Source: Acidobacteriota bacterium (GTDB lineage: Bacteria; Acidobacteriota; Terriglobia; Bryobacterales; Bryobacteraceae). From it: a stretch of 41,849 nucleotides of DNA. The translations under genes and the position numbers were made by a program. Positions 21,647 to 32,896 of this stretch are shown here, one piece after another. Position 1 is the first letter of the stretch. The number at the start of each line of letters is the position of its first letter. The stretch spans positions 1-41,849 of the forward strand of contig JACQZR010000250.1 of the NCBI GenBank assembly GCA_016213775.1, given 5' to 3'. The notes below the pieces were generated by a model that had not been told where the DNA came from, searched no databases, and was given only the letters and a program-made list of their open reading frames with translations.

Positions 21647-21662
21647 GCCAAGAGGAGTGCCC

Positions 21663-23609
21663 ATGAGAACGAATACAACATTACTGCCGGTTTTCCTAAT
21701 GACGGTGACCGTCTTCGCGCAGACCGGCAAGGAAATCCCATCGGCCTTTCTTGATGTGAGGCAGGAGGCGCGGCAGGCGCTGCCTGTCAGGGACGCGGCA
21801 GTCCGCAGACATCGCGAGGCCGCCATCAACATCCGTCTTTTCGACCGCGAGGCAGTGAAGGCGTTTCGCAAGCACGGAAAGTCTGTTCCGGCGGAACTGA
21901 GGAAGGTACGGATGAACCTGTTTCCGGACACGGACCTGGTGATCCAGTGGGACCGCGTGGACAGCGCCGACGGCGGCAGGAGCGTGGTCTGGGCCGGTAG
22001 TGTCGATGGTCAACCGCTGAGTCAGGCGATTCTGGTTGTCACCGGCGGTGCGGTGACTGGAAATATTGTTTCGGGCGGAGTGATCTATCAGATCCGGCCG
22101 GGGGACAATGGCATCCACTCTATCGGCGAAGCCGACCCGAGCACTCTTCCCCTGGAGGGCGAGCCGTTACGTCCACCGTCCGACCCGCCCCCTGGTCCCG
22201 GGCCGATGGCCGAACTCGCACCTGACGACAACGGGGCTGTCATCGACGTGATGGTGGCCTACACTGCGGCGGCGCGTCAGGCGGCGGGCGGCGTGGACAG
22301 GATGGTGCAACAGATCCAGTTGGGAATTGCGGAGACAAACCAGGGCTATGTCAACAGCCGCGTCAATCACCGTCTGCGGCTGGTTGGCTACGGAGAGGTG
22401 AATTACCAGGAGAGCGGAGACTTCGATACGGATCTGAACCGGCTTAGCTCGGCTGAGGACGGGATCATGGACGAGGTTCATGCCGCACGCGATCGTCTGG
22501 GCGCGGATCTTGTCAGCCTGTGGGTGGAGAAAGGCGATTACTGCGGACTGGCCTGGATTCTGGCTAACCCGGCGCGGCCGAACCCCGGACTCGGTTTCAG
22601 TGTCGTGCGCCGGGACTGCGCGACGGGGTCACTGACGTTCGGTCATGAGCTGGGACATAATCTGGGTGCCACTCACGCTCTGGAGGACCCGACCAGCCGG
22701 GGCGCCTACCCGTACTCGCACGGCTTCAAACAGACCACGCGGGCACCGTATTTTCGATCGGTGATGGCCTATGATTGCCCCGGAGGATGTCCACGGGTGA
22801 ATTACTGGTCTTCTCCCGATTTGGCTTATCAAGGTATGGCGATTGGGACTCGCGATACACATGACAATCGCACAACGCTGAATAACACAGCCGCGATCGT
22901 GGCGGCCTACCGGCGGAGTACGCAGACCAGCGGCACTGGGTTCCCGGAGTCCGCGCATCCCTATGCGGATAATTTTGACCAGACCTGGAGTTATACCTTG
23001 CAAGAGAATCCCGCTTCGATCGTGGTGACCTTCGACCCAAATACCTTTGTGGAGGAGGGTTGGGATTACATCGTCATCACTGACGGTAACGGGCGGGAAA
23101 TCGCGGGGAGTCCATTTACCGGGGATCAGTTGAGCAACAAGTACGTGGTGGTACCTGGCGCAACGGTGAAGATCCGGCTGGTGTCGGACGAGAGCGTCAA
23201 TGGCTACGGGTTCAAGGTGGCGGGCGTTCGCGCGGCCAGCAACGGCGGGGGTTCGGATCTGGCGACCGTTTCGTTCACGGCTTCCACCAGCGGCACGATC
23301 GGTGGAAAGATCAATGGCGCCGCGGCAAAGGTGGAGAACCAGGGACAAGCGGCGGCCGGAGCGTTTCGCATCGCTTTCTACTGGATCTCCGAGAGCGGGG
23401 AAAGCACGTTCTCCGGATGGTCGTGCGCTGTGGAAGGCCTTAGTCCGGGGGCGTCCTTCACGTGCAGCGGCGATCTCGGTGTTCTGGATTCGCTACGGCC
23501 GGGCCGCTACCGAATCGTGGCGATCGCTGACGATGAACGGAGGAGTGGCGATGGCAACTGGGACAATAACGCGCGGGCGTCGGAAGCCGGATTAGTGACG
23601 CTGCGTTAG
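21663..23609 (+). CDS. Secreted M12-like zinc metalloprotease with CUB-like domain
   Basis: I chose ATG 21663, which has GAGGAG five bases upstream, over the GTG two codons earlier. The product has 648 residues with a signal peptide (MRTNTTLLPVFLMTVTVFA). After a prodomain (about 20-190) comes a metzincin domain with H328-E-x-x-H332-x-x-G-x-x-H338 (HELGHNLGATH). A Met-turn (VMAYDC, M368) completes the reprolysin/M12B-like zinc site. A CUB-like domain (about 425-520, FVEEGWDYIVITDG) and a CARDB-like domain follow to the end. It should cleave proteins outside the cell. It is third in the operon with S53 and PEGA, so the two proteases probably work on common substrates or in activation order (inference). 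Confidence 0.88.
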   Translation: MRTNTTLLPVFLMTVTVFAQTGKEIPSAFLDVRQEARQALPVRDAAVRRHREAAINIRLFDREAVKAFRKHGKSVPAELRKVRMNLFPDTDLVIQWDRVDSADGGRSVVWAGSVDGQPLSQAILVVTGGAVTGNIVSGGVIYQIRPGDNGIHSIGEADPSTLPLEGEPLRPPSDPPPGPGPMAELAPDDNGAVIDVMVAYTAAARQAAGGVDRMVQQIQLGIAETNQGYVNSRVNHRLRLVGYGEVNYQESGDFDTDLNRLSSAEDGIMDEVHAARDRLGADLVSLWVEKGDYCGLAWILANPARPNPGLGFSVVRRDCATGSLTFGHELGHNLGATHALEDPTSRGAYPYSHGFKQTTRAPYFRSVMAYDCPGGCPRVNYWSSPDLAYQGMAIGTRDTHDNRTTLNNTAAIVAAYRRSTQTSGTGFPESAHPYADNFDQTWSYTLQENPASIVVTFDPNTFVEEGWDYIVITDGNGREIAGSPFTGDQLSNKYVVVPGATVKIRLVSDESVNGYGFKVAGVRAASNGGGSDLATVSFTASTSGTIGGKINGAAAKVENQGQAAAGAFRIAFYWISESGESTFSGWSCAVEGLSPGASFTCSGDLGVLDSLRPGRYRIVAIADDERRSGDGNWDNNARASEAGLVTLR

Positions 23610-23645: not shown

Positions 23646-23662
23646 CTTAACCAATTCTTGAC
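23646..23662 (+). promoter_or_regulatory. OmpR-type direct repeat 1, before histidine kinase 1
   Basis: CTTAAC (23646-23651) and CTTGAC (23657-23662) are direct repeats with an 11-bp period, the layout bound by OmpR/PhoB-family dimers. The second half overlaps a TTGACG that could serve as a -35 element for the kinase gene at 23713. Copies with the same design are at 26269, 28379 and 30750. Confidence 0.55.
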
Positions 23663-23712
23663 GCGGCGCCAACCGCGTCTTGAATCGGCTGTGGTGCAAT
23701 GTAGACATAGCC

Positions 23713-25587
23713 ATGAACCGATCGCCACTCACCGGCGCGAAGCCGAGCACACTGGCCGGTCTGTTTCTCGTTGTCGTGGGTCTTCCGGCGATCGTCCTGG
23801 TGTGGCTCGGAACGCAATTGCTCGTTCAGGATCGGTCTTTGGCGGAACAGCGCGAAACCGAACGGCGGCAAGCGGCTCTCCAATCCACGTCGCGCGAGTT
23901 GGAGAAGAAGCTCACCAATGCCTCCAACGGCCTGTCGCCGGGTATGGCGCGCTTCATCCTCTCGTCAACTGGGATTGCGGTGGAACCCAAGGAGAGTGTC
24001 TTGTGGGTTCCCAAGATGCCGGTGCTGCCCCCTGCCGCGGATGAGCCATTCGTGCAAGCGGAACGCGAGGAATTTAGCGGCGACCGTTCCGCCGCGCTTG
24101 TTTCCTACAATCAGTTTCTGCAAAAGCCCAATCCACCGGCGGTTCGCGCTGGAGCATTGTTGCGTGCGGCTCGAGTGTATCGGGGAGAAAAGCGTTGGGA
24201 TGAAGCGTTGCACGCCTACGACCGGCTCGCAACTACCGGCAGCGTCGCGATTGAGGGTCTCCCTGCTGATTTTGTTGCCCGGCGGGCGAAGTGCGATGTA
24301 CTGCTTGATGCCGGCCGCCAATTGGAACTACAGCGTGAGGCCGAGAGCTTACGATCGGACCTGCTCGCGAACCGCTGGGCGCTGGATCAGAGCTCCTGGC
24401 AACTGGCCGCCTCCCAAATCGAACAGTGGACCGGCCACTCTGTGCAGACGCCGGAAACGCGTCGCACGTTTTCGGAAGTTGGGAGCTGGCTCTGGAGCCA
24501 TCGTGACGAACGGCAGGAAAAAGTAATCGTGGCGGACAACCAACAGGTGACGCTTCTTCGGTCCCCCGGAACTGTGACCGCCGTTCCCGCAGTGGTAGTG
24601 GAGCAATGGCTTCGCCAGATCGCTAAAGAGAGTTCCGTCCAAATCAGCGCACAGACGGAATCCGGCAGCCATGTTGCGGGTGCAAAGGCCACACACGGCG
24701 CACGGTCGTTGAGAGCATCGCTCGCAGAGACAGGCTTGCCCTGGGTGCTGGTGGCGAGCCCCAATCCCCAAACCCCAGCCAGTCCTGAACTCGCCGCAAG
24801 GAGACGGCTATTGTCCTTGGGGCTTGGCACTATGATTCTGCTCATCGCAGGCGCAGGCTATCTGTTGTGGCGTGTCGTCCAGCGGGAATTGGCCATGGCG
24901 CGGCTCCAAACCGACTTTGTCGCCGCCGTTTCCCACGAGTTCCGTACGCCGCTTGCGTCCTTGCGGCATGTCACCGAGTTGCTGAGCGAAGACGACGAGC
25001 TACCCAGGGAGCGCCGTAGAAACTTCTACGAAGCTCTGGGCCGGAATACGGACAGGCTGCACCGCCTCGTCGAGTCCCTTCTGGATTTCGCCCGCATCGA
25101 GGCCGGCCGGAAGCCCTATGATCTGCGCCCAATGGATGCGGTTGAGTTTACCGGGCAGGTAGTCTCCGAGTTTCAAAAAGAGGCCGGAGCGCGTGGTTTC
25201 ACGGTGGATCTGGCAGTGGACACCACGGCCCCCCTGCCGGTGCGGGCCGATCCCGCCTCGTTGGGCAATGCGCTTTGGAACCTGTTGGACAACGCCGTCA
25301 AGTATTCACCAGGAAGGCATTCCGTGCGTGTTTCGGTGAGCCGCCGCGAAGGCTCCGTTGCCATTGCGGTAGCCGACCAAGGCATCGGTATCCCTGCCAC
25401 TGAGCAGAAGGAAGTGTTTCGCCGATTCGTGCGCGGCGCGGAATCCAAGCGGCTCGGGATCAAAGGCACGGGGTTGGGACTCGCCATGGTCTGGCATGTG
25501 ATCCAGGCGCACGGCGGGTCAATGGAGTTGGAATCCGCGGAAGGAGCCGGCAGCACTTTCCGCATTGTGCTTCCGGAGAAAGTGTGA
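23713..25587 (+). CDS. Sensor histidine kinase 1 with TPR-like periplasmic domain
   Basis: The product has 624 residues from ATG 23713; an upstream TTG is possible but would place extra residues before the membrane helix. There are membrane helices at about 15-35 and 365-385, with about 325 periplasmic residues between. Part of that loop (about 110-240) looks like TPR helices (ALVSYNQFLQ, AGALLRAARVYRGEKRWDEALHAYDRL). The kinase core follows: H408 in SHEFRTP (HisKA), N-box NALWNLLDNAVKY, G1 DQGIGIP and G2 GTGLGLAM. It would autophosphorylate H408 and pass phosphate to the response regulator encoded 4 bases downstream. The OmpR-type site before it suggests autoregulation. The TPR-like sensor region is unusual, and the signal is unknown. 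Confidence 0.9.
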   Translation: MNRSPLTGAKPSTLAGLFLVVVGLPAIVLVWLGTQLLVQDRSLAEQRETERRQAALQSTSRELEKKLTNASNGLSPGMARFILSSTGIAVEPKESVLWVPKMPVLPPAADEPFVQAEREEFSGDRSAALVSYNQFLQKPNPPAVRAGALLRAARVYRGEKRWDEALHAYDRLATTGSVAIEGLPADFVARRAKCDVLLDAGRQLELQREAESLRSDLLANRWALDQSSWQLAASQIEQWTGHSVQTPETRRTFSEVGSWLWSHRDERQEKVIVADNQQVTLLRSPGTVTAVPAVVVEQWLRQIAKESSVQISAQTESGSHVAGAKATHGARSLRASLAETGLPWVLVASPNPQTPASPELAARRRLLSLGLGTMILLIAGAGYLLWRVVQRELAMARLQTDFVAAVSHEFRTPLASLRHVTELLSEDDELPRERRRNFYEALGRNTDRLHRLVESLLDFARIEAGRKPYDLRPMDAVEFTGQVVSEFQKEAGARGFTVDLAVDTTAPLPVRADPASLGNALWNLLDNAVKYSPGRHSVRVSVSRREGSVAIAVADQGIGIPATEQKEVFRRFVRGAESKRLGIKGTGLGLAMVWHVIQAHGGSMELESAEGAGSTFRIVLPEKV

Positions 25588-25591
25588 ATCC

Positions 25592-26284
25592 ATGGCGAGG
25601 ATTCTGATCGTCGAAGATGAACCGGATTTGCGTATGAGCCTGGAGGAGGATATCCGCCGCCAGGGTCATGAAACCACGGTGGCTGAAGACGGCGCGCGTG
25701 CGCTCGAATTGGGCCGGAAAGGCCCATGGGACCTCATTCTTCTGGATGTCATGCTACCGAAAATGGATGGCTTTGACGTGTGCGCGGCGCTGCGCAAATC
25801 GGGAGTGACTGCGCCCGTAGTCATGCTGACCGCGCGGACCCAGGAAGCCGAGAAGGTGTTCGGACTCGATTCCGGGGCTGACGATTACATCACCAAGCCC
25901 TTCGGTCTGCATGAGCTCCGCGCACGCATCCGCGCCCAGCTTCGACGCGGCGCCGGCCCAGTCGATCGAGTGCGGCGATTCGGCGATTGCGTGGTGGATT
26001 TTGACCGCGCCACACTGCGCCGCGCCGGCCAACCGGTAGACATTACGCCGCAGGAGCTGCGTTTGTTGGAAGTATTGCTTGACGCCGGTGGGCGCGTGGT
26101 GAGCCGCGACCACTTGATTGAAGCAGCCTGGGGGCCTGGCACCGCGATCACGGACAGGGCGGTGGATACGCACATCTTCAACTTGCGCAAAAAGATCGAA
26201 CCGCTGCCTTCTGATCCCTGCTACCTCCTCAGCGTGCGCGGGCTGGGTTACCGGTTCGGTAGCGGAACCTTAACAGACTCTTGA
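25592..26284 (+). CDS. OmpR/PhoB-type response regulator 1
   Basis: The product has 230 residues. ATG 25592 follows the kinase stop by 4 bases. The receiver domain shows the acidic pair (VEDE), the phosphate acceptor D52 in LILLDVMLPKMDG, and the conserved K of TKPFG. The C-terminal winged helix (about 135-225) ends in AVDTHIFNLRKKIE and SVRGLGYRFG, typical of OmpR/PhoB. It is partner to histidine kinase 1 by order and spacing. Its likely binding site is the 11-bp spaced repeat found before both kinases and both propeller genes. One copy overlaps this gene's own stop codon. Confidence 0.95.
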   Translation: MARILIVEDEPDLRMSLEEDIRRQGHETTVAEDGARALELGRKGPWDLILLDVMLPKMDGFDVCAALRKSGVTAPVVMLTARTQEAEKVFGLDSGADDYITKPFGLHELRARIRAQLRRGAGPVDRVRRFGDCVVDFDRATLRRAGQPVDITPQELRLLEVLLDAGGRVVSRDHLIEAAWGPGTAITDRAVDTHIFNLRKKIEPLPSDPCYLLSVRGLGYRFGSGTLTDS

Positions 26285-26285
26285 C
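26269..26285 (+). promoter_or_regulatory. OmpR-type direct repeat 2, before propeller gene 1
   Basis: CTTAAC (26269-26274) and CTTGAC (26280-26285) have the 11-bp period. With copy 1 they share CTTAAC, three free bases, then a pyrimidine and TCTTGACGC. The site overlaps the response-regulator stop (TGA 26282-26284) and lies about 57 bases before the start at 26342, a position suited to activation. Confidence 0.55.
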
Positions 26286-26341
26286 GCAATGACACCGGCA
26301 GATTGAAGTGCGACGCCGACACTGAATCCAGGAGGGACAAA

Positions 26342-28363
26342 ATGAAGTCCAAAGCAAATCTGATGGGGACCCTGCTCTTGAGCGCCGCGATGGTATCTGC
26401 GCAGAGCGGATCACCGGCCGACGTGGCGCTCCGCGCTGCTATCGAACTGGAGACAGTGAAAGGCGACCTGCGCGGAGCAATCAAACGCTACGCCAGCCTG
26501 GCCGAAGGCAAGGATCGAGCGGTCGCCGCGCGAGCGCTGTTAAGGATGGCGCAGTGTCACGAGAAACTGGGCAACTCTGAAGCGCGGAAGATCTATCAAC
26601 GCATTGTGAAAGACTTTGGCGATCAGGCGGAATTGGTGGCGCAAGCGCGCGCGAAATTGGGTGGCGACATCGCCTCCGATGGCCCTCGAATCCGCCACTT
26701 TGCTCCCGCGGGCGACCATTGCATGCCGCAGGTACTGGGCGCGCGATTCACGGATTGCCATCGTCCACAGGGGTACTTTGTCCGCGACCTCAACACAGGG
26801 CAGGAACGCCTCGTCGTGCCGCAATCCAGCACGCAGGGACGGTTGCTCCCCGGTGCGTTTTCGCCCGATGAGAAGACGCTCACTTACTTCGATCTCTCCA
26901 CAGGTTTGCGGGCTGTCGGAGTCGATGGCACGGGCGACCGGCTTCTCGCTAAGGTCGGCTTCACCGGCGGCGGCGTATCGCTCCTCTATGGTCTCTGGAC
27001 GAGGGACAGCAAGCACCTGCTGCTACCTCTGCCGGTGAGTGAAACCGACAAGCAGACCATCGAGCTGGCGCTTGTTGCCGTGTCAGATGGCAGGAAGCAG
27101 GTCCTTCGCAGACTGAACACCGGGCCGATTGTTGATGCGGTCCTCTCTCCGGACGAGAAACTCGTTGCCTTTCTGCCCAAACCCGCGGTGCTGGACGGCG
27201 GGTTGCTGATCGCATCCCTCACTGGCGGTGAGCCGGTACCGCTCACAGGGACCGGCCCTGTGCGGCGGTTGGTAGGCTGGCACCCGAGCGGCCACGTGGT
27301 CTACACCAGTGACCGGACCGGGGGCGCGATGGGAATCTGGGCGATCCCGGTTGCACAAGGAAAGGCCTCAGGAGAGCCAAGGCTTGTGCACGCAAACATA
27401 CACCCTTCGATACGCCCATGGGTGGGACGTGACGGGGCAGTGCACTTTGAGCAGTGGGGGAACGAACCTGTTGTCAAGGCAGCGATACTATCAGCAGGTA
27501 TGCTGACCGAGCCCAAACCTGTCACCAAGCTCTTCACTAACGGCATCTGGAGCCCGGACTATTCTCGCGATGGCAAGAAACTCGTGTATGCCACGGCGTA
27601 TGCTCCCGGCACAGTGCGCTACATCGTTCAGGATTTGGCCAGCGGCCGGGAAGCTGCCTACCATGCGCCATTCCGAACGGCTCGCAATGCGGTTTGGTAT
27701 CCCGACGGATCGGCTTTACTGGTGCATGGGTTCCTGCAGCAAGGAGAGCAATTCACTTTGTACCGGTTTGTACCGGAAACGGGAGAATCGAAACGAATCG
27801 TGGACGGGCGCGTGGAAGTCTTCACGGTGGCCGGCCAAGATGTCTACTACCGCCACCCCAGCGACAAGCCGGGCACCATCCGCCTGTTGAATCTTGGTTC
27901 CGGAATCACCCGCGAAATCACCCTTCCGGGATCGCCGGCGCACATCTGGGCTCTCGAGGTTTCTTCGGACGGGAAGCGGGTTGCGGTCCAGGCGAGATCG
28001 GCGGCGCAAGGGGGGACCGATCCAGATGCAGGCACCTTGCGTCTGACCATGGCGTCCCTTTCCGGAGAAGGTCAAAAGCTGCTGCTCGAATTGCCAGTCC
28101 CGAAGGTGCGAGGAACGCCCCCCATGGCATGGACTCCGGATGGAAGCGCTCTCTTGTTTGCGGCCCCAAGAGAAGACGGCGGCTTCGAGCTTCGTCTGGC
28201 CTCCGTGAATGGCGGCGAACCTGTGCGCGTCTACACAGGCAAGGAAGATATCGGACGCATCGCCTTCCACCCCAACGGCCGCGACGTCGCCATCTCTAGT
28301 CGTGACCGTTCCGGCGGAACCTATTGGGTGATCGAGAACGCCTTCGCCTCATCGAAGAATTGA
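26342..28363 (+). CDS. TolB-like beta-propeller protein 1 with TPR-like N-terminus
   Basis: The product has 673 residues. ATG 26342 has AGGAGG eight or nine bases upstream; an earlier in-frame start has no such site. Signal peptide: MKSKANLMGTLLLSAAMVSA. Residues about 25-110 are TPR-like (DLRGAIKRYASLAEGKDRAVAARALLRMAQCHEKLGNSEARKIYQ; the run is quoted only to show the repeat class). The rest is a WD40/PD40-like propeller with blades such as FSPDEKTLTYFDL, TRDSKHLLL and FHPNGRDVAISS. This is a secreted or periplasmic protein of a family common in Acidobacteria, with no catalytic motif. It is probably the output, or a co-sensor, of the two-component pair just upstream. It is paralogous to the protein at 30839. 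Confidence 0.85.
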   Translation: MKSKANLMGTLLLSAAMVSAQSGSPADVALRAAIELETVKGDLRGAIKRYASLAEGKDRAVAARALLRMAQCHEKLGNSEARKIYQRIVKDFGDQAELVAQARAKLGGDIASDGPRIRHFAPAGDHCMPQVLGARFTDCHRPQGYFVRDLNTGQERLVVPQSSTQGRLLPGAFSPDEKTLTYFDLSTGLRAVGVDGTGDRLLAKVGFTGGGVSLLYGLWTRDSKHLLLPLPVSETDKQTIELALVAVSDGRKQVLRRLNTGPIVDAVLSPDEKLVAFLPKPAVLDGGLLIASLTGGEPVPLTGTGPVRRLVGWHPSGHVVYTSDRTGGAMGIWAIPVAQGKASGEPRLVHANIHPSIRPWVGRDGAVHFEQWGNEPVVKAAILSAGMLTEPKPVTKLFTNGIWSPDYSRDGKKLVYATAYAPGTVRYIVQDLASGREAAYHAPFRTARNAVWYPDGSALLVHGFLQQGEQFTLYRFVPETGESKRIVDGRVEVFTVAGQDVYYRHPSDKPGTIRLLNLGSGITREITLPGSPAHIWALEVSSDGKRVAVQARSAAQGGTDPDAGTLRLTMASLSGEGQKLLLELPVPKVRGTPPMAWTPDGSALLFAAPREDGGFELRLASVNGGEPVRVYTGKEDIGRIAFHPNGRDVAISSRDRSGGTYWVIENAFASSKN

Positions 28364-28378
28364 GGCTGCCCGGCGTTT

Positions 28379-28395
28379 CTTCACCTTTTCCTGAC
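28379..28395 (+). promoter_or_regulatory. OmpR-type direct repeat 3, before histidine kinase 2
   Basis: CTTCAC (28379-28384) and CCTGAC (28390-28395) repeat with an 11-bp period. It is the weakest of the four copies, with one change in each half. It lies 45 bases before the kinase 2 start at 28440 and after the propeller 1 stop, so it may start a second transcript. Confidence 0.45.
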
Positions 28396-28439
28396 AATCG
28401 GAAGGCGGCAGCGGCAGTACAATCGGTTCTGGTCCGAGC

Positions 28440-30071
28440 ATGCGATTGTTCCACCGTCAAAATCTGCTGTTCCTGAGTGCGGTACTGCTGCCTTCCGTTT
28501 TGGTGATTGCGCTGGGTGTGCGCACTATCCGCCAGGAGGAGGAACTGGCGGACAAGCGGCTTCGGGAGCAGAGACAGCAAGCCTTGGACCTGGTGCTTCA
28601 GGAAGTATTCACCCGGTTGGAAGCCATCCTGCTGCGCGCTGCTCAAGGGAAAGTCCCGGTTGGTGATCCGGATATCGCTCTGGTGGCACGCCTGGAGGCA
28701 GGGCGGATTGTGCTTCCTTGGGAAGGGCTTACATCCAAAGCCGAACCTTACCTGTCACAACTCGTGGATTCGGCAAAGGCAATGGCGCTGCTGCGGCTCG
28801 ATCCATCGGCGGCGGACGAATACGGCGTGCCCGTGGCTGTGTATGCGGCGCGCCGTCTCGTACGTGAGCCGTCCATACGGAGAGGCGAGATTGACGAACG
28901 CATGACTGCGGTGCTGCGTGCGGCACAACTCTCTCCAGCGGCCGCGCACATGATTGCTGAGGTTTGCGGAGATGGCCCGATACGACGGTTGGCTGATGTC
29001 CGAGCCGCGGATGCCGAGTTGGCCGAGCGGCTCTCAAGGGAGCCGCACGCTTTCGATGCCGGCGGCGGATGGCGTTTTTTCCAACCGGCCCGCTGGCTGG
29101 TTGGGGTTACCGGCGAGACGGTGGTTGCTGCCCGGGCGCAACGTGTGATGGACTCCGTGCATATGCCCGCCCAACTGCGCTGGAACACAACCGGCGATCT
29201 CCAGGGTAATGCACTCAGCGACCGGTTGCCCGGATTGCGCGTTCTGACACTTCCCAGTGAAGGCACCTACAGCGGGAGCAGCCGCATCTTCTTTCTCTCC
29301 GGCCTGCTGCTGGCGATTCTGGTGACACTCTTCACCGCCTACCTTCTGCATCGCGACGTGTTGCGCGAAACACGCCTTGCCGCATTGCGAGCACAGTTTG
29401 TCTCCAGCGTCTCCCATGAACTGCGCACGCCCATCGCCTCAATTCGCGCCTTTGCCGAGCTGCTCGATATGGGCCGGGTGAGGGACGAGAAGGACAGGGC
29501 CGAATTCGTGAAGAATATTCTGGGCGAGAGCGAGCGGCTGAGCCGCCTGGTGGATGGTGTTCTGGAATTCTCGCGCATGGAACAAGGCAAGCGTGTCTAC
29601 CGGCTGAAGCCCATCTCGCTGGAAGAAGTGCTGCAGTCAGCGGCGCAGGCGCTCGCTTACCCGTTGGCGCAAGGTAAGTTCGAACTGAAGATCGCGGCGG
29701 AGCCTAACCTGCCACCCGTATCGGCGGACCGCGAAGCGCTGGAACAGGCCGTCGTCAACCTGCTGGGCAATGCGATCAAGTATTCGGGAGATGGACGGCT
29801 CATCGAGCTCACGCTGCATCGCGACGGTAAGCAGGCGGTCATTCTCGTGCGCGACCACGGCATCGGCATTCCTTTTGATGAACAGCCGAGAATTTTTGAA
29901 CGCTTCTACCGCGCACCTGACCCCAGTGGGCGTCAGATTCCAGGGACCGGCCTCGGCCTCGCCCTGGTGGATCACATCGTCAAAGCCCACGGCGGAAGCG
30001 TCGCCGTGGAAAGCCAACCCGGGCAGGGAAGTACATTCTCCATCCTTCTGCCTCTCTCCACAATCACATGA
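28440..30071 (+). CDS. Sensor histidine kinase 2
   Basis: The product has 543 residues. Membrane helices lie at about 7-27 (LLFLSAVLLPSVLVIALG) and 280-303 (FFLSGLLLAILVTLFTAYLL), enclosing a helix-rich periplasmic loop of about 250 residues. The kinase core has H326 in SHELRTP, N-box NLLGNAIKY, G1 DHGIGIP and G2 GTGLGLAL. The stop overlaps the start of response regulator 2 by 4 bases, so they are coupled. Architecture matches kinase 1 with a shorter sensor loop and no clear TPR units. The two kinases look like diverged paralogues. Confidence 0.92.
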   Translation: MRLFHRQNLLFLSAVLLPSVLVIALGVRTIRQEEELADKRLREQRQQALDLVLQEVFTRLEAILLRAAQGKVPVGDPDIALVARLEAGRIVLPWEGLTSKAEPYLSQLVDSAKAMALLRLDPSAADEYGVPVAVYAARRLVREPSIRRGEIDERMTAVLRAAQLSPAAAHMIAEVCGDGPIRRLADVRAADAELAERLSREPHAFDAGGGWRFFQPARWLVGVTGETVVAARAQRVMDSVHMPAQLRWNTTGDLQGNALSDRLPGLRVLTLPSEGTYSGSSRIFFLSGLLLAILVTLFTAYLLHRDVLRETRLAALRAQFVSSVSHELRTPIASIRAFAELLDMGRVRDEKDRAEFVKNILGESERLSRLVDGVLEFSRMEQGKRVYRLKPISLEEVLQSAAQALAYPLAQGKFELKIAAEPNLPPVSADREALEQAVVNLLGNAIKYSGDGRLIELTLHRDGKQAVILVRDHGIGIPFDEQPRIFERFYRAPDPSGRQIPGTGLGLALVDHIVKAHGGSVAVESQPGQGSTFSILLPLSTIT

Positions 30072-30757
30072 GCCGAATTCTCATCATCGAAGACGAACCC
30101 GCGCTGCAGCGTGCCCTCGCCGCCAACTTCACCTTTGACTCGCACGAAGTGCTCACCGCTTCCGATGGACGCACGGGCTATCAAATGGCCGTCGACAACC
30201 AGCCTGATGTCGTCATCCTTGACCTGATGCTTCCCGGTATGAGCGGCTTCGAGGTCTGCCGCAAGCTGCGGGCCGAAGGCGTCACCACTCCGGTGCTGAT
30301 GCTGACTGCTCGTGGCGAAGAAGCCGATCGAATTACCGGTCTGGATCTCGGCGCCGACGACTACGTCACCAAACCGTTCTCCGTGCGCGAGCTGAGCGCC
30401 CGCGTGCGGGCTCTGCTGCGCCGCGCCAATCCGCCGCATGCCTTGCCGGACCGGCTTCGCATCGACGACATCGAGATCGACTTTCGTTCCTATGAGGCTC
30501 GCAAGAGCGGCCAGCCTCTCGATCTCACCCGCAAAGAGTTTCACCTGGTGCAGCTATTGGTTGCCCGCACCGGAGAAGCGGTGTCGCGCGAAGAGATTCT
30601 GAACAAGGTCTGGGGGATGGAGGTCTACGTGACCACTCGCACGGTGGATACACACGTGGCGAATTTACGGTCGAAGATGGAGCGCGACCCAAGGCATCCC
30701 GAACATCTCATCACGGTCCACGGCATCGGCTACCGCTGGGCCGGCGGAACTTCATGA
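30068..30757 (+). CDS. OmpR/PhoB-type response regulator 2
   Basis: The product has 229 residues. The receiver domain has the IEDE acidic pair, D52 in VVILDLMLPGMSG and the K of TKPFS. The winged-helix domain ends in TVDTHVANLRSKME and TVHGIGYRWAG. It overlaps kinase 2 by 4 bases, a strong sign of a cognate pair. It is similar to response regulator 1 throughout (for example, TPVLMLTARGEEADRI against APVVMLTARTQEAEKV). Cross-binding of each regulator at the shared repeats is possible. Confidence 0.95.
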   Translation: MSRILIIEDEPALQRALAANFTFDSHEVLTASDGRTGYQMAVDNQPDVVILDLMLPGMSGFEVCRKLRAEGVTTPVLMLTARGEEADRITGLDLGADDYVTKPFSVRELSARVRALLRRANPPHALPDRLRIDDIEIDFRSYEARKSGQPLDLTRKEFHLVQLLVARTGEAVSREEILNKVWGMEVYVTTRTVDTHVANLRSKMERDPRHPEHLITVHGIGYRWAGGTS

Positions 30758-30766
30758 GAACTTGAC
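30750..30766 (+). promoter_or_regulatory. OmpR-type direct repeat 4, before propeller gene 2
   Basis: CTTCAT (30750-30755) and CTTGAC (30761-30766) have the 11-bp period. The second half runs into TTGACA (30762-30767), followed after 17 bases by TAACAA (30785-30790), a fair sigma-70 promoter. The site overlaps the response regulator 2 stop codon, just as copy 2 does for regulator 1. Confidence 0.55.
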
Positions 30767-30838
30767 ATATGCAAAAGGTTTCCATAACAACCCAAGAAAT
30801 CCTTCCCGTTACTATCGCTCATGAAAGGAAATTCACTC

Positions 30839-32896
30839 ATGAGATTCAGTAAGTGGACCATCGGATTGTTTGCCGCATCCGCGCTGCTGTTAGCCGCGGA
30901 GAACGGGTACAAACTGTTCCAGCAAGCGCTGGCCAAGGAGCGGGCGGATGCGGATCCGCGCGCGGCTATCCGCATTTATGAGCGGGTGGTGAAGGAAAGT
31001 GCCAACGATCGCAAACTCGCGGCGCAGGCGCTCATCCGCATGGCGGAATGCTACAACAAACTCGGCGACACCGAAGCACGCAAGCTCTATGAGCGGGTGC
31101 TGCGCGATTACGCCGATCAGAAGGAATCCGCGACTACCGCGCGCGTGCGGCTGGGTAGTGCCGGTTCTCCAGCACGTGCCAAGGGCGATCGTGTGGTCTG
31201 GACGGGTAGAGACGTGATTCATGCCGGCGGCAGCGTCTCCCCCGATGGCCGCTACATCTCTTATACAGACTGGTTTGCGGCCGGCAATCTGATGGTGCAC
31301 GATCTCGTGTCCGGGACGGATCGCGTGCTTACGGATAACAAGAACTGGAATGGCCAGGGCAGCTCAGGGTTAGGCTCCGCCATTTCCCGGGATGGAAAAC
31401 AGGTGGCGTATGCATGGCTGAACTACCAGACACGACGGATCGAAATCCGCATTGTGAGCCTCGAAGGCGCTGCGCAATCCCGCCGGGTCATGGAAAGCGC
31501 AGAAATCGCACATGCTTCCGTGGGGGACTGGTCTCCCGACCAGAAGCTTCTAGCCGTAACGTTGGAACGTAGAGATCGCAGCAAACAGATTGGCATTGTC
31601 GGAGTCCAGGACGGGGCGTTGCGAGTCCTCAAGTCCGTGAGCTGGCGCGGTCCGAACAAGCTGTTCTTCTCTCCCGACGGAAAGTACCTGGCCTATGACC
31701 TTCCAGCGGATGATACCGCCCTGCAACGCGACGTTTTTGTGATCGCGGTGGATGGCAGCCAGGACACCGCGCTGGTGACGAACGCGGCCAATGATGCCGT
31801 CGCGGGCTGGTCGCCCGATGGCCGGGAGTTACTATTCACGAGCGATCGAACCGGAGCCAACGGTTTGTGGTCTCTTGCCGTGTTCAGCGGCAAGGCTGCG
31901 GCCGCGCCGAAACTGCTCAAACCCGATATCGGCACTGTGTGGCCCTTGGGACTTACATCCTCCGGCGCCCTGCATCTAGCCAAGGACACCAGCACCGAAG
32001 CTATGCAAGTCGCTCCCATCGATCTGGCAGCGGGAAAACTACAGGGCACGCCCTCTGCGCAGGCGTACCGGGCGAGTGGTCCCGCCTGGTCGCCGGACGG
32101 AAAATACTTAGCCTACAAGATTCAATCCGACGGTCTGAATATCCTCGCGATCCGCTCTGTGGAATCTGGTGAGGTCAAGAAAGTCCCGTTATCTTTGCAC
32201 TACTTCACCGTAGTCCGCTGGTCACCGGACTCTCGCTGGCTGATCACCGGAGCAAGGGACAGGAAAGGCTCTTCTGCAATATACCGCCTCGATCCCGCCA
32301 CCGGTGACGCCTCGGTCATTGCGAAAGGCAGCCACACGAGCCACGCCGAATTCTCTCCCGACGGAAAGAAGATCTATTCGGACTATCACCCCGAACAGCG
32401 AAGGGCGCTCGTCGAGCACGACCTGAACACTGGCAGGACTCGCAGTGTCTACCAGGCTACGGAACCGGCAAGACCGGGCCGGTTCGGACTTTCTCCCGAT
32501 GGGCGCTACGCCGCAACCGTCCTTATGCTTGATCGCGACCGCACCGCCGCGGACTCTTCCGGAAACACGACGGTGCTGCTACTGATCCCGATCGACGGTG
32601 GTGCGCCTCGCGAACTCCTGCGCGTGAGCCGGCCGGAAGTTCTCGAAGCGTTTGACAACCTGGCGTGGACACCCGACAGCAAAGCCCTCATCGTCATGAA
32701 ACGGACCGGTGAGAAGAAAGAACTATGGAAGGTTTCGCTGGAAGGCGGCCAGGCTCGCAAGCTCGACATCGATGTGAGCGGGTGGCTGGGCTTCCGGCTC
32801 CACCCCAACGGCCGCCAAGTAGTCTTCTTTGCTGGCGAGCGTTCAGAGGAAATCTGGTCCTTGGAAAACTTCCGTCAGTTCCTCGTCGCAAAGTGA
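30839..32896 (+). CDS. TolB-like beta-propeller protein 2 with TPR-like N-terminus
   Basis: The product has 685 residues from ATG 30839, preceded by AAAGGA; the in-frame ATG at 30821 has no ribosome site. Signal peptide: MRFSKWTIGLFAASALLLAA. Residues about 20-105 are TPR-like (PRAAIRIYERVVKE, then AALIRMAE-type helices). PD40-like blades follow (VSPDGRYISYTDW, FFSPDGKYLAYDL, WSPDGRELLFTSDR, FRLHPNGRQVVFF). It is paralogous to the propeller at 26342, and each follows its own kinase-regulator pair. It is probably periplasmic. Family function is poorly known; partner binding is the safest guess. Confidence 0.86.
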   Translation: MRFSKWTIGLFAASALLLAAENGYKLFQQALAKERADADPRAAIRIYERVVKESANDRKLAAQALIRMAECYNKLGDTEARKLYERVLRDYADQKESATTARVRLGSAGSPARAKGDRVVWTGRDVIHAGGSVSPDGRYISYTDWFAAGNLMVHDLVSGTDRVLTDNKNWNGQGSSGLGSAISRDGKQVAYAWLNYQTRRIEIRIVSLEGAAQSRRVMESAEIAHASVGDWSPDQKLLAVTLERRDRSKQIGIVGVQDGALRVLKSVSWRGPNKLFFSPDGKYLAYDLPADDTALQRDVFVIAVDGSQDTALVTNAANDAVAGWSPDGRELLFTSDRTGANGLWSLAVFSGKAAAAPKLLKPDIGTVWPLGLTSSGALHLAKDTSTEAMQVAPIDLAAGKLQGTPSAQAYRASGPAWSPDGKYLAYKIQSDGLNILAIRSVESGEVKKVPLSLHYFTVVRWSPDSRWLITGARDRKGSSAIYRLDPATGDASVIAKGSHTSHAEFSPDGKKIYSDYHPEQRRALVEHDLNTGRTRSVYQATEPARPGRFGLSPDGRYAATVLMLDRDRTAADSSGNTTVLLLIPIDGGAPRELLRVSRPEVLEAFDNLAWTPDSKALIVMKRTGEKKELWKVSLEGGQARKLDIDVSGWLGFRLHPNGRQVVFFAGERSEEIWSLENFRQFLVAK

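Follow-up and report, generated by a model that had tools for sequence, protein, structure and literature searches.

Four copies of a spaced direct repeat in a contig of an Acidobacteriota bacterium (Bryobacteraceae) are very probably OmpR/PhoB-type autoregulatory operators, with the regulator of each cassette acting on its own operon and on the neighboring gene for a propeller protein. The stretch of DNA analyzed here (the window; 41,849 nucleotides (nt), GCA_016213775.1, JACQZR010000250.1) corresponds to all of C179, one of the 314 contigs of a 10.96-Mb genome, and its Pfam matches include two sets of genes, each comprising a histidine kinase (HK1, HK2), an OmpR-type response regulator (RR1, RR2), and a propeller protein (PR1, PR2). 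The window contains exactly four matches to the pattern CTTMAYNNNNNCYTGAC, each on the + strand, which start at 23646, 26269, 28379, and 30750, so that every kinase gene and every propeller gene of the two sets is preceded by one; this part of the first-pass annotation of the window was confirmed. Shuffles yielded a mean of 0.01 matches, a figure that flatters the pattern since it was read off the same four sites; the chance value therefore means little, and independent support has to come from other cassettes. Putative operators 1 (23646..23662, +; CTTAAC-N5-CTTGAC; before HK1) and 3 (28379..28395, +; CTTCAC-N5-CCTGAC; before HK2) match both the pattern and a motif recovered de novo. Putative operator 2 (26269..26285, +; CTTAAC-N5-CTTGAC; before PR1) matches the pattern, is supported by its motif score, and codes for the end of RR1, and putative operator 4 (30750..30766, +; CTTCAT-N5-CTTGAC; before PR2) lies over the stop codon of RR2 and has a region p of 0.045.

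Support from outside the window came from a survey of regions holding 65 of the 77 matches to Trans_reg_C in the genome (profile search), plus the two in the window, with 10 matches left out. A total of 26 kinase–regulator–propeller cassettes were found, the window's two included. An expectation-maximization search of 24 kinase-upstream regions returned a 22-nt motif of two CYTGACA half-sites 11 bp apart, with a log-likelihood of 163 compared with 68-80 in 10 letter-shuffled sets that were given fewer starts and iterations. This result supports the earlier suggestion of an OmpR/PhoB-type tandem layout with an 11-bp period. A de novo search on the regulator-end regions was discarded, as it recovered nothing but the conserved end of the regulator coding sequence; the kinase-upstream motif was scored there instead, and the regulator-end regions thus played no part in motif training. 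With a site called at a region p < 0.05 against a 400 kb own-genome background, the + strand of the regulator-end region carried a site in 24 of the 26 cassettes (19 at p < 0.01) and the − strand in 4 of 26. Comparison with related genomes, as the first-pass annotation had advised, gave regulator-end sites in 14/16, 2/2, and 27/31 cassettes of three sets (43/49 overall) and kinase-upstream sites in 14/16, 1/2, and 19/26 (34/44). Among control two-component pairs without an adjacent propeller gene, a regulator-end site was called in 1 of 18 own pairs and in 1/17 and 0/2 pairs of relatives (2/37 overall). The best match of HK2 outside the genome, 62% identical, is in G049, a member of another family of the same order, where TTCTTGACGTTTCCCTGACAAT stands ahead of the kinase gene and ATCTTCATGAAAACTTGACACA over the regulator stop, positioned as in the window; operator 4 thus has a similarly spelled counterpart at the equivalent place (locus L171). 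It should be noted that for two cassettes (L090 at 12183, and L302) a clearer repeat lies close to the top-scoring site, which is probably out of register, and that the 14/16 set retains one locus (L184) whose regulator reading frame was probably miscalled; the counts were left uncorrected.

The literal pattern was rejected as a genome-wide signature, given that 7 of its 14 exact matches (compared with 5 for the reversed pattern) lie under open reading frames (ORFs) outside any cassette found. With one mismatch allowed, 184 matches were found for the pattern versus 314 for its reverse. Six of the exact matches are in cassettes, namely the four in the window, one before a kinase gene on C194, and one after a regulator gene on C203; among the other eight, seven are covered by at least one ORF of at least 100 amino acids and one (C220) by none, although this test is crude, with 5 of the 6 cassette matches also covered by such an ORF. 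A stricter version, YTGACANNNNNYTGAC, had 12 matches versus 5 for its reverse and was too strict for use. It is therefore the general motif, not the literal pattern, that clusters near kinase and propeller genes elsewhere, as had been proposed. The sites studied are those at kinase and propeller genes, and other targets were sought within 400 kb of the genome only; that scan for stand-alone targets returned 17 matches at ≥12 bits, of which 11 are inside same-strand ORFs of ≥150 amino acids; L127 is the one among these 11 that shows a −10-like hexamer in phase.

Spelling is more alike between the two sites of one cassette than between sites of different cassettes. Over 14 core columns, identity averaged 10.13 within cassettes versus 7.96 in mixed pairs for the 23 of 26 own cassettes that have both sites (z 7.4), and 10.52 versus 8.64 in relatives (n = 31, z 8.9); both tests reached the permutation floor of 5e-5, and own and relatives' cassettes together gave z 11.7. 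Similarly, a site's own partner was its best or joint best match in 12/23 own and 12/31 relatives' cassettes, where permutation expects 2.2 and 1.9. Shared core letters averaged 10.35 within cassettes (n = 54), 8.96 between cassettes of the same recognition-helix class, and 8.15 between classes. These results bear on two alternative explanations. Recognition of all sites by a single global OmpR-type regulator, rather than by each cassette's own, would account for the fit of one family-level motif to most cassettes, but it is improbable given that the spelling varies between cassettes, agrees within them, and tracks the recognition helix of the local regulator. Alternatively, the likeness might be a relic of recent cassette duplication without functional meaning, an idea to which contigs carrying two or three cassettes (C122, C118, C179, C194, and C181) and a row of five propeller genes on contig C101 of the relative G103 lend some weight. 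However, the kinase-upstream and propeller-upstream places of one cassette are non-homologous, so duplication of a whole cassette does not explain why its two sites are alike, and the excess is greater in the core than in other columns; such a relic is thus extremely improbable.

The relation between regulator and spelling was examined in 73 cassettes with a readable recognition helix, of which 70 have at least one significant site and entered the counts; L184, L200, and L320 gave no helix match, and a letter was counted if 50% or more of the half-sites of the cassette had it. Regulators with the helix letters VDNQ accompany CGTGAC or CATGAC half-sites, those with VDA or VDY accompany CCTCAC, VDNH accompanies CCTGAC, VDTH accompanies CTTGAC, and a Y replacing D196 accompanies CTTGAA. 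A purine at base 2 occurs in 10/10 VDNQ cassettes versus 13/60 others, C at base 4 in 9/9 VDA or VDY cassettes versus 11/61, T at base 2 in 17/22 cassettes with T at residue 197 versus 3/48, and A at base 6 in 3/3 with Y at residue 196 versus 1/67. The top four mutual-information z scores were 17.6, 17.5, 11.8, and 11.7, from shuffles that ignore kinship. The VDNQ-GTGAC and VDAH-TCAC links were noted before the later cassettes were fetched; VDAH then held in 4/4, and VDNQ in 5/5 for a purine at base 2 and in 4/5 when G itself was required in half or more of the half-sites. In contrast, the links involving 197-T and 196-Y were found after the fact. The fit of a single pattern to both window cassettes would be accounted for by their regulators sharing VDTH, and in a tree built with the helix masked the two (WIN1 and WIN2) are separated by well-supported branches; the link between T at 197 and T at base 2 appears on each side (7/8 vs 1/5, p 0.03; 10/14 vs 2/43, p 1.3e-6).

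The residue numbers used here are those of PhoB, as inferred by analogy. The W, G, and V of RR2 are spaced as W184, G185, and V190 of PhoB, which are named along with D192 in a section of PMC3973317, so the T of VDTH would be residue 197; the match to the PhoB chain 1gxp has one residue fewer over the helix stretch. The codons for D-T-H, the presumed equivalents of 196-198, are at 26165..26173 (+) in RR1, as placed from its sequence, and at 30647..30655 (+) in RR2, where the 1gxp match extends over the domain. In the structural passages of that same source (PMC3973317), Val197 and Thr194 of PhoB contact thymines and Arg201 a guanine.

Promoter geometry provides a further line of evidence. At 37/58 kinase and 47/67 propeller promoters, compared with 10–11% in letter shuffles, the gap from the 22-nt motif to the best −10-like hexamer after it is 18/19, 29/30, or 40/41 nt, values that were chosen after a first look at the data. 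The steps between the favored gaps correspond to one 11-bp turn, and weaker in-phase half-sites occur at +22 and +33. In the window, −10-like hexamers at these spacings are TGCAAT (23695..23700, +) 29 nt past the motif of operator 1, TACAAT (28418..28423, +) 19 nt past that of operator 3, and TACTAT (30810..30815, +) 40 nt past that of operator 4. The first-pass annotation had proposed that the second hexamer doubles as a −35 element, and the repeats might indeed be sigma-70 −35 elements or ordinary promoter sequence that no regulator recognizes, inasmuch as half-site 2 often reads TTGAC and resembles a −35 hexamer. This proposal is not supported: the distance from half-site 2 to the −10-like hexamer is in most cases 20-21, 31-32, or 42-43 nt rather than the ~17 nt of a sigma-70 promoter, the half-sites are tandem and in phase, their letters change with the regulator helix, and the regulator-end site is near absent where no propeller gene follows (the 2/37 control pairs above), all of which makes a sigma-70 origin very improbable. 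No TTGACA-like consensus was found 17 nt before the −10 in cassette promoters. The geometry of cassette promoters resembles that of activator-dependent OmpR/PhoB promoters.

The sign of regulation is less constrained. The cognate regulator could bind and chiefly repress, as in negative autoregulation, since placement near a promoter is compatible with either sign; the weaker in-phase half-sites of the −35 region would suit a repressor, as would the weak peaks that propeller promoters show at +47 and +52, coinciding with the −10. Against this, the strong pair is separated from the −10 downstream of it by whole turns at fixed distances, and the lack of a TTGACA-like −35 consensus is what activator-dependent promoters would be expected to show from general knowledge. 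Predominant repression is thus considered unlikely.

Returning to the reading of the repeats as cognate operators, several observations weigh against it or narrow its reach. The motif score of operator 4 is modest and operator 2 lacks a good −10, its candidate (GACACT, 26318..26323, +, 29-nt gap) being poor. Kinase-upstream sites were missed in 10/44 relatives' cassettes, perhaps partly due to miscalled starts, and upstream sites were called in pairs without a propeller gene (5/18 own, 2/17, and 1/1), although for two of these matches (L200 and the fourth regulator of L314) the stretch ends before any propeller gene could appear. With the regulator-end site rare and the upstream site commoner in such pairs, the propeller-side site is near-specific to cassettes and the kinase-side site less so. 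Within own cassettes, non-core columns also agree more than expected (z 3.2); the first set of relatives has no such excess (z 0.5). The helix statistics are inflated by phylogeny: certain relatives nearly duplicate own cassettes (e.g., L296 is close to L063), and independent pairs amount to 2 on well-supported branches and 9 on the best tree, numbers that do not allow a test. Finally, the VDTH regulators L069 and L312 have other half-sites and L092 has CCTGAC/CCTCAC.

The repeats also overlap regulator stop codons, in a manner that differs between the two window cassettes. The RR1 stop (26282-26284) corresponds to bases 14-16 of operator 2, within half-site 2, and the RR2 stop (30755-30757) to bases 6-8 of operator 4; the two overlaps described in the first-pass annotation are therefore real, but not their placement at the same relative position. 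Across 67 regulator-end sites, the TGA stop coincides with the TGA of half-site 2 in 18 and with that of half-site 1 in 5. A T-x-x-stop tail is found in 18/18 regulators with the stop in half-site 2 and in 0/47 others, a group that excludes the five regulators with the stop in half-site 1, of which 0/5 have T at that place. RR1, ending in ...GTLTDS, belongs to the half-site-2 kind and RR2 overlaps its operator at another place. At the half-site-2-stop sites the operator is coding sequence and seems to dictate the tail of the regulator.

In the proposed mechanism, every cassette encodes three proteins: the kinase, a regulator of the OmpR/PhoB type, and a TPR-propeller protein that is probably secreted. 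Two promoters would serve it, the first ahead of the kinase-regulator pair and the second ahead of the propeller gene. Each promoter would comprise a strong pair of half-sites at 11-bp spacing followed by weaker in-phase half-sites up to the −10. Once phosphorylated, the cassette's own regulator would bind head-to-tail at both operators and increase transcription from both promoters, that of its own operon and that of the propeller gene, amounting to positive autoregulation plus one dedicated target. In paralogous cassettes, half-site spelling may have drifted jointly with helix residues 196-198, which would limit cross-talk, and at 18/67 regulator-end sites half-site 2 supplies the stop and half-site 1 spells the T of T-x-x-stop. 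The motif, placement, pairing, helix association, −10 phasing, and tail are seen in the DNA; binding by the cognate regulator, its phosphorylation, activation over repression, insulation, and secretion are predicted, with phosphorylation, sign, and insulation inferred from the regulator family. We lean, by a small degree, toward the broader proposition that the ~26 self-addressing paralogous cassettes constitute near-orthogonal regulator-operator pairs under a residue-to-base code at 196-198 and that, at about one quarter of propeller promoters, the operator rather than protein function dictates the T-x-x-stop tail.

The genes of the window cassettes are all on the + strand and were assigned by Pfam. 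HK1 (23713..25587) is a sensor histidine kinase (HisKA and HATPase_c), RR1 (25592..26284) joins Response_reg to Trans_reg_C, and PR1 (26342..28363) is a PD40/WD40-like beta-propeller protein matching the propeller profile (A1) over its full length, with a TPR_6 stretch that falls under its Pfam cut-off and an N-terminus that looks signal-peptide-like by eye. The second set comprises the sensor histidine kinase HK2 (28440..30071), RR2 (30068..30757; Response_reg and Trans_reg_C), and PR2 (30839..32896), which combines TPR with a PD40 beta-propeller and also matches profile A1. In both regulators the receiver and winged-helix Trans_reg_C domains score above Pfam cut-offs, and the DNA-binding domain of RR2 matches 1gxp at 1.7e-14 as well as OmpR, WalR, and RegX3 chains. 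Directly upstream of HK1, 21657-23609 encodes a reprolysin-like metallopeptidase with a CARDB domain (Pfam).

Across the genome, a profile built from 11 propellers was used to score 150 of 329 candidates and gave at least 25 full-length matches beginning at profile position ≤14. Judged by position relative to Trans_reg_C matches, 25/25 of these are downstream of an OmpR-type regulator, and in 24/25 the propeller starts within ~105 nt of the regulator's DNA-binding domain (~790 nt on C203). Two cassettes (L070 and L089) have a kinase interrupted by the contig end, and for own loci on the − strand the propeller picked may be the farther one (L069). On C118, the triple repeat CTTCAT-N5-CTTCAC-N5-CTTCAC is present twice in L090 (8483-8510 and 10330-10357); the upstream copy is ahead of a shortened copy of a kinase gene start, and small ORFs, one of them PIN-like by eye, lie between the two. 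A 1294-amino-acid ORF (G000 C127:39481-43311, L068) has two consecutive propeller-profile matches and is seemingly a fused or doubled propeller gene. Additionally, three adjacent ORFs of 743-748 amino acids (G000 C275:51102-57620, L110) each match both Trans_reg_C and the propeller profile and are a possible one-component cousin of the cassettes. In G103, the five propeller genes in a row (C101:43293-64300; L314 and L315) stand with their cassettes on one strand and have differing operator spellings, making this a compact place for studying cassette divergence.

A literature search covering part of the literature recognized no prior account of these cassettes or of the helix code. The nearest analog is PhoB of Escherichia coli and its pho box, given in an excerpt of PMC3333781 as two CTGTCAT repeats of 7 bp separated by 4 bp. 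The regulators are of the same type, with domains that match 1gxp and tandem half-sites of 11-bp period, but the cassette half-site is CYTGACA rather than of the CTGTCAT type, is class-dependent and paralog-specific, belongs to a set of 26 cassettes in one genome, and often overlaps the coding end of the regulator gene. PmrA of Klebsiella pneumoniae likewise binds tandem half-sites head-to-tail with helix alpha3 in the major groove, but has other half-sites, genes, and host, and a partial account of it mentions no propeller partner (PMC3973317). Regulators of Desulfovibrio vulgaris examined by DAP-chip also provide systematic regulator-motif links and autoregulation; however, in that study the paralogs DVU0539 and DVU0946 share identical sites and most sites are palindromes (PMC3333781), unlike the diverged direct repeats of the cassette paralogs. 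Candidatus Solibacter usitatus also has a large (9.9-Mb) genome with a paralog group of winged-helix two-component regulators, but the terms propeller, WD40, histidine kinase, and response regulator are absent from the main text of the article describing it (PMC3174227).

In these cassettes, dozens of regulator-operator pairs, with the two operators of each regulator serving as internal replicates, make a specificity code of the PhoB-type helix directly testable. To our knowledge, much less has been documented about how duplicated two-component systems become insulated at the level of DNA than about their insulation between kinase and regulator. The regulator tails are a caution that conservation at the end of a protein can stem from a signal in the DNA. 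The helix code might allow the targets of uncharacterized regulators to be predicted.

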